Positions 30,476-33,805 of a stretch of 64,000 bases of DNA are shown here, piece by piece. Below the pieces are notes generated by a model that was not told the DNA's origin, did not search any database, and saw nothing but the letters and a program-made list of their open reading frames with translations. The DNA is taken from positions 1 to 64,000 of the forward strand of contig CAMUYW010000005.1 of NCBI GenBank assembly GCA_947165045.1. Direction: 5' to 3'. Origin of the DNA: an uncultured Fibrobacter sp. (GTDB taxonomy: Bacteria > Fibrobacterota > Fibrobacteria > Fibrobacterales > Fibrobacteraceae). Both the position numbers and the translations under genes were made by a program. Numbering within the stretch: position 1 is the first letter of the stretch; each line of letters starts with the position of its first letter.

Positions 30476-31423
30476 TTAGAGAGCTTGCTTTACGAGCATC
30501 GGTCTAAATTCGACGTTCAGCGGGGCCAGTTTTTTAGCTCCATAGTCTACGGCGTTTTCCTTTGTATCAAAAGGACCGGTGCGCACGATGTAAAGGACTT
30601 TGCCGCTTTCTAGAGTATTCTGCGTGATTGTGCAAGATATGTTGCGCTTTTTCAGGTTATCGACGAGCAAGTCGGCGTTGGACTTGACGCCAAATGCGCC
30701 CAGTTGCAGCTGCCATGCGGATTTTTCTTCGGCAGGCTTTGCTTCGATTGCGGTTTGCTGTGCCGCTTGGTTTGTTGACTGCACAGAGATCGATGGCGTT
30801 GAATTTTGTTGTGCAGGGTTCGCCTGTTCTTTGGGCAGTTCAGCGGTTTGTGGCTTTTGTTCTGCGTTTGCAATCTGTTCTTTCTTGGCGGCTTGTTCTG
30901 CCCTGGCTTTGAGGGCTTCGGGGTTGCCGAGATCCTTGCAGGCTGCGTTCAATTCTTCGCTATGGGCGCGGTCTTGCACGGCGGCGCAGACTTTTTGCAG
31001 TACGGTAACTTGGTGCGGCTGAGACGTTTCTATAGCGTGAACGAGGGATTCTGCGGCTTTGTTGTAGCGGCCAAGGTACAGCTGGAATTGAGCCTTGGTC
31101 ATCATGAGGTCGGCGTAAATGGCTTTTTGCGGGTTTGTTTTTTCGATGAGGCTGTCGAGGCGTTTGCCGGCCTTGCTAAAATCGGCGGTTACGCCAGTCT
31201 GAGAGAGGGCGAGTATATTCCACAAAAAGCATTCGGTGCGTGTGGAGTCGGGCTGTGCGGGGCAAACGACTTCGTAAGCGGCGGCAGCTTCTTTCCAGTT
31301 GCCGTTGACATACGCTTTTTGAGCTGAAGCTAGTGTTTGTGCGGGTTGCGCGAAGGATGCTGTCGTGAGAAATGCGCTCAGGGCGCCTGTAATAACCAAA
31401 TTACGAATAAAATATTTAGCCAT
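30476..31423 (-). CDS. Periplasmic SPOR-domain protein with TPR-like N-terminus
   Basis: 315 aa. Signal peptide (VITGALSAFLTTASFAQ); residues ~30-165 are helical with TPR-like repeats (KAYVNGNWKEAAAAYEVVC, LYLGRYNKAAESLVHAIE). A Gln/Ala/Glu-rich linker follows, then a C-terminal SPOR domain (SAWQLQLGAFGVKSNADLLVDNLKKR...VRTGPFDTKENA). SPOR domains bind denuded peptidoglycan at division sites. GAGGG lies 5 nt before the ATG. A long structured RNA candidate ends 18 nt upstream of the start codon, so expression may depend on it. Confidence 0.9.
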   Translation of the reverse strand: MAKYFIRNLVITGALSAFLTTASFAQPAQTLASAQKAYVNGNWKEAAAAYEVVCPAQPDSTRTECFLWNILALSQTGVTADFSKAGKRLDSLIEKTNPQKAIYADLMMTKAQFQLYLGRYNKAAESLVHAIETSQPHQVTVLQKVCAAVQDRAHSEELNAACKDLGNPEALKARAEQAAKKEQIANAEQKPQTAELPKEQANPAQQNSTPSISVQSTNQAAQQTAIEAKPAEEKSAWQLQLGAFGVKSNADLLVDNLKKRNISCTITQNTLESGKVLYIVRTGPFDTKENAVDYGAKKLAPLNVEFRPMLVKQAL

Positions 31424-31441
31424 ATTGCCCTCTTTCGGTCC

Positions 31442-31738
31442 CCTCTAAAAATTCATTTTCGAAAATTTCGAGAAACTCTTGCGACTCGGATATGTCCGTT
31501 CGAACAATTTCGACGGCCAATCGCTCGTCTTACAGAGTTTTGGCTGCGACACATCGTGCTGGTTGTATGTTCATACCAACTGTACAGTTCGGTCATGTCC
31601 ATGCAAGCATGGGCGCAACACTCACTTTGGACAGTTGTCGTCATTCAAAGTGGCAAATACCTCCAGTATTCACCACTTTTCATTCCTGCCATCACTCGGT
31701 CTCGCTCAAATTTCCTTTATCAAAGCAATTTTTAGAGG
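31442..31738 (-). ncRNA. Candidate ~300-nt structured RNA or leader
   Basis: The gap 31424-31845 has no convincing gene. Its core is closed by a perfect 12-bp inverted repeat: CCTCTAAAAATT (31442-31453) and AATTTTTAGAGG (31727-31738). Inside are a 14-bp hairpin (31666-31679 with 31647-31660, loop 5 nt), a CCATGC/GCATGG hairpin (31599-31612), a GTTG...CAAC hairpin (31562-31580) and a bulged CCGTTCGAA/TTCGACGG hairpin (31496-31516). In the 14-bp hairpin two positions are G-U on the minus strand but A-C on the plus strand, which favours a minus-strand RNA. It would be the leader of the SPOR gene or a separate RNA. I do not recognise the family. Confidence 0.5.
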
Positions 31739-31845
31739 TAACCTTTTTATAAAAATAAAAAAAATAGAGAAAATTGGCGAATGCTGAAATGTGTAACTCG
31801 TTGATATTGCGTGAGTTACGCGAATAGACCTCGGTGCGGAGTCGG

Positions 31846-33168
31846 CTAAACGAGAGTGCCGCGGAGCGTCCAACCGCGGATGTCATCGATTTTCACGTTC
31901 ACGTAATCGCCCGGCTTGATGATGCGGCTTTCTTCGGGCTTGAAGATGACCTTCTTGAAATTGTCCGTTTTACCAACAAATTCAGTTGCATCGCGGGTGG
32001 AGCTAGCTTCGACGAGAATTTCTTCGGTGCGACCGATCATCATCTGGTTACGCTTGAGTGTAATCGCGTTTTGGAGTTCTACGAGGCGTGTGTGGCGTGC
32101 CGACTTTTCTTCGGGCGTGAGGATTTCGGGCTCGTTGTACGATTCCGTTCCTTTTCGCGGGCTGTAGATGAACATGTAGGCGGTGTCGAACTGGCAGGCT
32201 TCAAATGCCTTGATTGTTTGTTCGAAATCTTCATCGCTTTCGCCCACGAATCCGCAAATGACGTCCGTCGAAATCGCATAGTACGGGTCGTGGCTACGCA
32301 GCTGTTCGATGACGGTCATGTACTGTTCCATGTTGTGCTGGCGGCGCATCTTCTTGAGGATGGCGTCGGAGCCGCTCTGGAGCGGGATGTGAGCGTAATG
32401 GCAAACTTTCGGGTTGTTCAGAAGAACGTCGATGAGTTCGTTCGTGTAGTGGCGCGGATGCGGGCTTGTAAAGCGGATGCGCTTGATGCCGCCGATTTCG
32501 GAGACCTTCGTCAAAAGCGTCGCGAAGTCTTCGGTAGCGGTCTTGTAGGCGTTTACCGTCTGGCCGAGCAGCATCACTTCGCTAATGCCCTTGTCGGCGG
32601 CCCTGCGGACTTCGGCGAGGATGTCGTCTGCTTCGCGGTATTTCTCGGGACCGCGGAGGTACGGCACGATGCAGTAGCTGCAACGCTTGTTGCAACCGCG
32701 CTGGATGGCGACAAACGTGCTGAAGTTGTTGCTCAATTTGGCGTAGTCACCGAGGTAGTTCTCGCTACGGTCTTCGTCGATGAACATCTTGTGGTGCGTC
32801 TGGTGCAGCGGGCTGTGGGCGTCGCCGAACAGAAGCTCCGGAATTTTGCGGTACTGGTCCGGACCTACGATGTAGTTCACGTTCTTGAGGCGCTTCAACA
32901 GTTCTGGCCCGCGGTTCTTGGCCATGCAACCGCAAACGACGACTTTCACGTCGGGATTCTTTTTGCGCAAGTACTTGAGCTTGCTGATGTTCACGATGGC
33001 GGTTTCCTCGGCCTTTTCGCGTACGCTGCAGGTGTTCACGATGATGATGTCGGCGTCTTCCTGGTTGTTCGTCTCGACACAGCCGCACATGTCTAGCTGT
33101 TGAGCTATCATCGCGGAGTCGTATTCGTTCATCTGGCAGCCGTATGTGGCCAAGTGGTATTTCTTCAT
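31846..33168 (-). CDS. miaB: tRNA-2-methylthio-N6-isopentenyladenosine synthase
   Basis: 440 aa. ATG 33168 (MKKYHLATYGCQMNEYDS) is the standard MiaB N-terminus; the frame runs upstream to 33195. The N-terminal MTTase domain carries three cluster cysteines (TYGCQMN, VNTCSVREKAEE, CGCMAKN). The radical-SAM cluster is QRGCNKRCSYCIVPYLRG. A C-terminal TRAM domain (RIIKPGDYVNVKIDDIRGW) is present. MiaB adds methylthio to i6A37 in tRNAs, including tRNA-Leu. TAAATTTG lies 5 nt before the ATG. Confidence 0.95.
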   Translation of the reverse strand: MKKYHLATYGCQMNEYDSAMIAQQLDMCGCVETNNQEDADIIIVNTCSVREKAEETAIVNISKLKYLRKKNPDVKVVVCGCMAKNRGPELLKRLKNVNYIVGPDQYRKIPELLFGDAHSPLHQTHHKMFIDEDRSENYLGDYAKLSNNFSTFVAIQRGCNKRCSYCIVPYLRGPEKYREADDILAEVRRAADKGISEVMLLGQTVNAYKTATEDFATLLTKVSEIGGIKRIRFTSPHPRHYTNELIDVLLNNPKVCHYAHIPLQSGSDAILKKMRRQHNMEQYMTVIEQLRSHDPYYAISTDVICGFVGESDEDFEQTIKAFEACQFDTAYMFIYSPRKGTESYNEPEILTPEEKSARHTRLVELQNAITLKRNQMMIGRTEEILVEASSTRDATEFVGKTDNFKKVIFKPEESRIIKPGDYVNVKIDDIRGWTLRGTLV

Positions 33169-33193
33169 GCGGCCAAATTTAGTAAAAGTGTGC

Positions 33194-33239
33194 AAGGCGA
33201 ACGATGCGCAAAAGCTCGCTTTTGCATATCTAAACCGCC
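33194..33239. repeat. Intergenic hairpin repeat, shortened copy 3
   Basis: CAAGGCGAACGATGCGC followed by GCAAAAGC-TC-GCTTTTGC, then ATATCTAAACCG. It matches the first half of copies 1 and 2; its hairpin sequence is different but also self-complementary. Confidence 0.5.
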
Positions 33240-33259: not shown

Positions 33260-33339
33260 CAAAAGGCGAGCGACGCGCGAGTTAAGCTTGCTTGAACGAG
33301 CATGTCCGAGCCGAGCTAAATGCACTCCAAAGGAGTGCC
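33260..33339. repeat. Intergenic hairpin repeat, copy 2
   Basis: About 80 bp aligned with 18269-18349. It shares AAAAGGCGAGCGACGCG, CCGAGCCG and TAAATGCACTCC-AAA-GGAGTGCC. The variable centre GTTAAGCTTGCTTGAAC folds on itself with one bulge. Confidence 0.7.
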
Positions 33340-33389
33340 ATTTAGAAGGTAGTGGTTGGTGGTTTGAAAGTGCCTAAAATCGCAAAAAG

Positions 33390-33607
33390 TGCTACCAAAA
33401 TGCATGGAAAAATGAAAATGGTAGCATAAATTGTATGTAAATTAACTAAAACCTATCGAATTTTGGGGTGCTTTGGAGAAATTATGCTACCAAAAAGGGT
33501 TAGTTTCTTGTTTTGGTAGCATGTTTTTCGCTGTTTAACCCCTAAATGATGCATATAAACTAAAAATTATGCTACCAAAAATATCTTTTGGGTTCGTTTG
33601 GTAGCAT
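33390..33607. repeat. Alternating GCTACCAAAA inverted-repeat array
   Basis: Three inverted repeats share the arm ATGCTACCAAAA: unit 1 at 33391-33425 (7-bp stem), unit 2 at 33484-33522 (perfect 12-bp stem, 15-nt loop), unit 3 at 33569-33607 (11-bp stem, followed by TTTTTT). Forward arms are 96 and 84 bp apart; loops and spacers differ. The array fills most of the 33169-33805 gap and lies just upstream of the nuclease-like gene. Unit 3 could act as a terminator. Confidence 0.75.
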
Positions 33608-33805
33608 TTTTTGAAGAAAAATGCATTTTCACGCTCGCGATGCCTTGCTTTGAATGGAAAAAATTTGCATATTCTAATTATCGGTTGCGCAAGGATGACT
33701 TGTTTGACCCTGTTATTATATGTTGGTTGCGTCCAGAAGTCTCTTTAGACGTTTACCTCGGTTTGCTATATCGTTCTTTTTATGTACTATCAAATTGAGG
33801 GTGTG

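Follow-up and report, generated by a model that had tools for sequence, protein, structure and literature searches.

A folded element ahead of a Fibrobacter SPOR-domain gene: an IS5-type MITE, almost certainly, with probable selection on its RNA

Small palindromic elements and the locus in Fibrobacter

Bacterial MITEs derived from insertion sequences (ISs) have been reviewed (PMC10969869), and several described systems come close to the element presented here. The Correia elements, or NEMIS, of Neisseria are 107-155 nt long, have terminal inverted repeats (TIRs), and give transcripts in which they form long stem-loops that RNase III cuts within mRNAs (PMC2229807, PMC10969869). The ERIC, or RU, elements of the Enterobacteriaceae are imperfect palindromes of ~127 nt that lie between genes, are transcribed, and affect mRNA levels (PMC10969869), with processing by RNase E (PMC10969869, PMC2229807). 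For RUP of Streptococcus pneumoniae, mobilisation by IS630-Spn1 has been proposed (PMC2229807).

The Fibrobacter family resembles bacterial IS-derived MITEs in being short, non-coding, intergenic, and multi-copy, with TIRs, a short AT-rich target duplication, and the ends of an autonomous IS. It differs from bacterial MITEs generally in an interior that is probably under strand-specific RNA-pairing selection and holds conserved tandem G·A modules, and in a wide size range that runs from 35-nt TIR-only copies to a 758-nt multi-arm copy. Both sequence and host phylum separate it from Correia/NEMIS, with which it shares TIRs and a hairpin, and any shared processing would be by analogy. Sequence and host also distinguish it from ERIC/RU, as do the IS5-family IS with matching ends and the duplication of 4 bp. 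RUP is likewise small and palindromic, with ends that match those of a resident IS, but its partner is an IS630 with a TA target, whereas the Fibrobacter family goes with the IS5 family and 4 bp. Within the IS5 family (NCBIfam NF033581), an element labeled L203 has the GGnnnCCTCTAAAAATT ends and 4-bp duplication of the family; the window element lacks a transposase and has an unrelated interior. The kind, an IS-derived MITE with a transcribed hairpin, is already known. This family, and its combination of strand-specific RNA selection and modular arms, appear to be new; a search of open-access literature, outside which fell the insertion-sequence supplement of the S85 genome paper, turned up neither a Fibrobacter MITE nor this RNA.

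The window, the whole stretch of 64,000 nucleotides that was analyzed, holds the element between a MiaB-like gene and a SPOR-domain gene, both on the minus strand. An earlier note on this DNA had proposed a structured RNA of ~300 nt here, closed by a perfect 12-bp inverted repeat. The repeat is indeed there, with 31442-31453 (CCTCTAAAAATT) perfectly complementary to 31727-31738 (AATTTTTAGAGG), and so is a hairpin with the 14-nt arms that had been described (31647-31660 / 31666-31679). The feature is real and its bounds of 297 nt were too small: the perfect repeat is the core of a longer, imperfect one with 22-nt arms (31437-31458 / 31722-31743, 82% complementary), and the element occupies 31437-31743, with its RNA sense on the minus strand. 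These ends leave 13 nt, rather than 18 nt, between the element and the SPOR ATG. The features of the locus are as follows.

31437..31743, minus strand: complete element, a 307-nt copy of what is almost certainly a MITE (ends by alignment with other copies, GGnnnCC...GGnnnCC; multi-copy)
31722..31743, minus strand: 5' terminal inverted repeat GGTTACCTCTAAAAATTGCTTT (same ends on the IS5-family element)
31437..31458, minus strand: 3' terminal inverted repeat AAATGAATTTTTAGAGGGGACC (alignment)
31744..31747, minus strand: left flank AAAA, candidate target duplication, imperfect (3/4 against GAAA)
31433..31436, minus strand: right flank GAAA, candidate target duplication, imperfect (3/4 against AAAA)
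31647..31679, minus strand: apical hairpin AAAGTGGTGAATACTGGAGGTATTTGCCACTTT (several compensated pairs)
31565..31638, minus strand: extra arm 1, 74 nt, with REP-like hairpin CATGCTTGCATG (alignment)
31469..31541, minus strand: extra arm 2, 73 nt, fold-back hairpin (alignment)
31750..31757, minus strand: TATTTTTA, at the position of a putative promoter-like -7 box (alignment of empty sites)
30476..31423, minus strand: SPOR-domain gene, downstream neighbor, same sense (name from the earlier reading of the sequence)
31846..33195, minus strand: MiaB-like radical-SAM methylthiotransferase, upstream neighbor, same sense (name from reading the protein)

The perfect 12-bp repeat was rejected as evidence by itself because such repeats within 300 nt are not rare: the 64-kb window has seven places with one, and Markov simulations gave 0-7 matching 12-mer pairs per 64 kb. 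The fold of the interval is another matter. The fold energy of 31437-31743 is -101.4 kcal/mol, against a mean of -74.9 kcal/mol for dinucleotide shuffles (z = -5.65, 0/100), and 31435-31745 gave z = -5.9 on the minus strand and -6.0 on the plus strand, so the interval is structured, as had been claimed, on both strands. The statement that it matches no known RNA class also held when Rfam was searched. No match for the element was found at gathering score and nothing credible lay below the thresholds, where the matches, far short of the cut-off, were to snoRNAs of eukaryotes or to other small families; RNase P, tmRNA, SRP, 6S, and riboswitches were set aside with no gathering-score match, and over the window only two tRNAs, both elsewhere, reached that score. 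IMG/VR had no match for the exact core pattern, phage and plasmid records had none for a 160-nt copy, and a phage or plasmid origin was rejected on these searches. A scan of the element for sigma-70-type patterns recognized no promoter or terminator.

Dispersed copies, target duplications, and an IS5-family partner

The window's own MAG holds further copies and fragments, and other members of the genus have many copies. A covariance model built from 13 copies and searched against 80 Fibrobacter genomes matched the family in 38 of them, with up to nine matches per genome, and among GTDB species genomes the exact core pattern occurred only in Fibrobacter records. Most copies have a standard form of 159-161 nt. 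All aligned copies have sharp ends, GGnnnCC...GGnnnCC, the copies carry the terminal inverted repeats GGnnnCCTCTAAAAATT, and copy length ranges from 35 to 758 nt with size classes that include 123, 160, 233, and ~305 nt. The longest closed ATG open reading frame (ORF) in 43 distinct short copies is 27 aa. The smallest members are palindromes of 35-38 nt with little beyond the two ends; most of them are flanked by target duplications, and the ends therefore suffice for transposition. The 758-nt copy (L176:1843-2600, duplication TTTA) is non-coding and has many nested hairpin arms and a predicted fold of -298.5 kcal/mol in which the terminal rod is intact.

Perfect 4-bp repeats flank the element in 15 of 63 distinct flank pairs, against 2.0 expected from shuffled flanks (0/2000 shuffles), and repeats of 2 and 3 bp in the same pairs are at chance. 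The window copy's own flanks, AAAA and GAAA, match at three of four positions, and no exact empty site could be read for it. A first transposase search with PF01609 in 20 copy-rich genomes gave three matches only, one of them beside a matching end. The fragment L201, a truncated DDE transposase beside a matching end, was then traced through 80 genomes to the intact L203, a 1255-bp IS5-family element in another Fibrobacter with ends GGTAACCTCTAAAAATT / AATTTTTAGAGGTTCCC and the duplication TAAA. This partner encodes an IS5-type DDE transposase of 335 aa, which scores 293.5 bits against NF033581 (cut-off 140) and 104.6 bits against PF01609 (DDE_Tnp_1) and also has DUF772. The ends of the family are the ends of L203, the duplication has the same length, and L204 and L205, two decayed relatives, share these ends, with the duplications TGAA and ACAA. 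The window's own MAG and the copy-richest genomes yielded no intact IS of the L203 type, and the genome that carries L203 has no covariance-model matches. On the fragment itself, at L201:1330-1761, an ORF fuses a radical-SAM-like piece to the truncated DDE transposase tail beside the family-matching IS end.

The family thus has TIRs at both ends, a 4-bp target duplication, dispersed positions with occupied and empty sites, no transposase or conserved ORF, and an autonomous relative with matching ends. Because the ends and the 4-bp duplication are shared with an IS5-family element, the feature is, with close to full certainty from sequence comparison, a MITE and the family a set of IS5-type MITEs. 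The shared ends and duplication length suggest that an IS5-family transposase would mobilize the family in trans.

At the SPOR locus, leaders were read in the 17 nearest relatives (L049-L065), and none of them has the element; the window copy is therefore an insertion specific to its lineage rather than a leader passed down by descent. Comparison with these empty sites puts the insertion point between a TATCTTTG/TATTTTTG-like box, immediately upstream, and the GAGGG-AAT-ATG start region downstream; relatives without the element have TATCTTTG/TATTTTTG at the position of the promoter-like box. The box is a candidate for the SPOR promoter; the sigma-70 scan found nothing. Since the insertion lies between the box and the start, a transcript from the box would carry the element as a leader.

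Relative to the 160-nt form, the window copy has two insertions, arm 1 and arm 2, each of which is predicted to fold back on itself with the rod unbroken. Three other genomes have arm 1 too, in their 233-nt copies, and its REP-like hairpin occurs alone in most Fibrobacter genomes (relatives of query 178-212); these relatives may form a separate REP family. The whole of arm 2 occurs in this copy only among 80 genomes, with short pieces that recur in the 758-nt copy, and was rejected as a separate dispersed element on that ground. Upstream of an aspartokinase-like gene, several Fibrobacter species have a copy at one shared locus, with arm 1 in one copy (L009) and without it in three (L089, L099, and L102), which suggests arm gain or loss at a fixed locus. 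Elsewhere in the window, AGCTTGCTTGAACGAGCATGTCCGAGCCGAG at 33284-33315 resembles the REP-like hairpin of arm 1, and beyond the MiaB-like gene, at 33370-33615, repeated ATGCTACCAAAA / TTTTGGTAGCAT palindromic units look like a second dispersed-palindrome array.

Pairing across copies and the sense of the RNA

The unfitted alignment, made with MAFFT from 45 copies (43 of them distinct), gave a consensus rod of 53 pairs. In this rod 97.9% of cells pair, compared with 93.4% when the 3' letters are shuffled and 37-52% when they are slid, and two-sided changes occur at 22 of the 53 pairs, compared with 7.7 in the shuffled control and 2-5 in the slid one. Since the same copies yielded the structure, it has an advantage on the cells paired; the two-sided changes are still far beyond the controls. 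Because the copies are related, the covariation counts are not fully independent, and the comparison of G-U with A-C was made on events on a tree of the copies. Canonical pairs changed to G-U 24 times and to A-C four times (p = 1.8e-4), with 16 and two such changes in the interior helices (p = 1.3e-3). Per-site changes at unpaired sites were about equal (A>G vs T>C, 1.12/1.19; C>T vs G>A, 0.97/0.87), and this symmetry means that mutation bias does not explain the G-U excess. G-U pairs matter only in RNA of the one sense, and the sense under selection is the minus strand in the window, as the earlier note had read from the G-U pairs of one hairpin. In the apical hairpin, one G-U pair is fixed in 42 of 43 distinct copies.

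The rod also contains four tandem G·A modules, each flanked by pairs and nearly invariant (44-45 of 45 copies, with G or A at column 48). The G·A steps fall at alignment columns 42-43/124,126; 48-49/116-117; 60-61/103-104; and 64-65/99-100, and their near invariance speaks against simple correction of a DNA palindrome. Compensatory changes exceed the controls, and one strand tolerates G-U more than A-C, so it is likely that the fold is selected as RNA and that the feature is a mobile element and a folded RNA at once. The earlier note had counted conserved pairing in related genomes for its structured RNA and a MITE with target duplications against it. Pairing is conserved, with compensatory changes, and the copy family does consist of MITEs with target duplications, so both came true and the two readings are compatible. 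What holds of the original candidate is its fold, its minus-strand sense, and its lack of an Rfam family; a discrete noncoding RNA or leader of ~300 nt that belongs to the SPOR gene is not supported, since this is one insertion of a dispersed family.

What the rod may do

The explanation that we favor overall, with good confidence, is an IS5-mobilized MITE whose fold is kept by selection on the transcript of one strand. The non-autonomous MITE would be moved in trans by an IS5-family transposase that recognizes the GGnnnCCTCTAAAAATT ends, and it leaves a 4-bp AT-rich target duplication. In most copies, the ~115-nt interior and the ends fold together as a single long rod that contains the tandem G·A modules, and selection on the transcript of one strand (minus here) probably maintains it. 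Variants, among them the window copy, grow as they acquire hairpin arms. In the window, the element landed between the SPOR promoter-like box and the Shine-Dalgarno region, and the SPOR mRNA should carry it as a hairpin leader of ~310 nt.

The strongest competitor, itself unlikely, is an ordinary MITE without RNA function, in which the hairpin is a by-product of palindromic ends and the complementary changes come from arm-to-arm correction in DNA (quasipalindrome templating) or shared descent. Every MITE hallmark is present, many MITEs form hairpins merely through palindromy (PMC10969869), and there is no sense bias relative to genes. Arm correction, however, would erase internal loops and G-T pairs, yet the four G·A modules and the G-U pairs persist; the preference for G-U has no counterpart at unpaired sites; and the interior covaries although the 35-38-nt copies transpose without it.

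If the fold is selected as RNA in an IS5-mobilized MITE, the likeliest reason would be that each copy is a self-contained double-stranded domain in host transcripts, so that a double-strand-specific RNase excises or trims the rod, or the rod insulates the message next to it. Such cis action on host messages is the most economical proposal, and the analogy with Correia/NEMIS and ERIC would make the element a processed or insulating hairpin in host mRNAs. The orientations of genes around copies (>> 16, >< 11, << 9, <> 8) give no clear sense bias, suggestive at most, which counts against a strict cis-mRNA role because such a role would predict one. A mobile structured RNA that acts in trans with MITE ends as its vehicle, such as a selfish RNA to which a host or transposase protein binds via the G·A rod, is a more novel reading than cis action and an improbable one. 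It would fit strand-specific RNA selection in every neighborhood without sense bias, highly conserved G·A modules, and an interior dispensable for movement; against it, no promoter or terminator was recognized in the element among the sigma-70-type patterns scanned, there is no Rfam relative, and nothing supports a discrete transcript. A vertically inherited leader or riboswitch-like RNA of the SPOR gene, despite the sense orientation, the strong fold, and the place 13 nt before the ATG and downstream of a promoter-like box, is scarcely credible and was rejected, since the orthologous gene lacks the element in the 17 nearest relatives and other copies adjoin unrelated genes in all orientations.

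A broader proposal, which we offer tentatively, is that IS5-type ends carry a cargo: a selected, strand-specific RNA rod of repeated tandem G·A modules, dispensable for transposition, that acts on host messages or in trans. The spread of the MITE would thus supply genes across Fibrobacter with an RNA module for regulation or processing. The debate over whether bacterial MITEs are inert debris or carriers of selected RNA functions rests mostly on folding energies. This family offers a sequence test, in which G-U is compared with A-C and unpaired sites serve as the control, that points to RNA-level selection, and the naturally occurring 35-nt TIR-only copies serve as controls as well. It also adds a MITE/IS pair for Fibrobacter, and it accounts for intergenic hairpins of a class that one would otherwise wrongly take for riboswitches or for leaders of particular genes.
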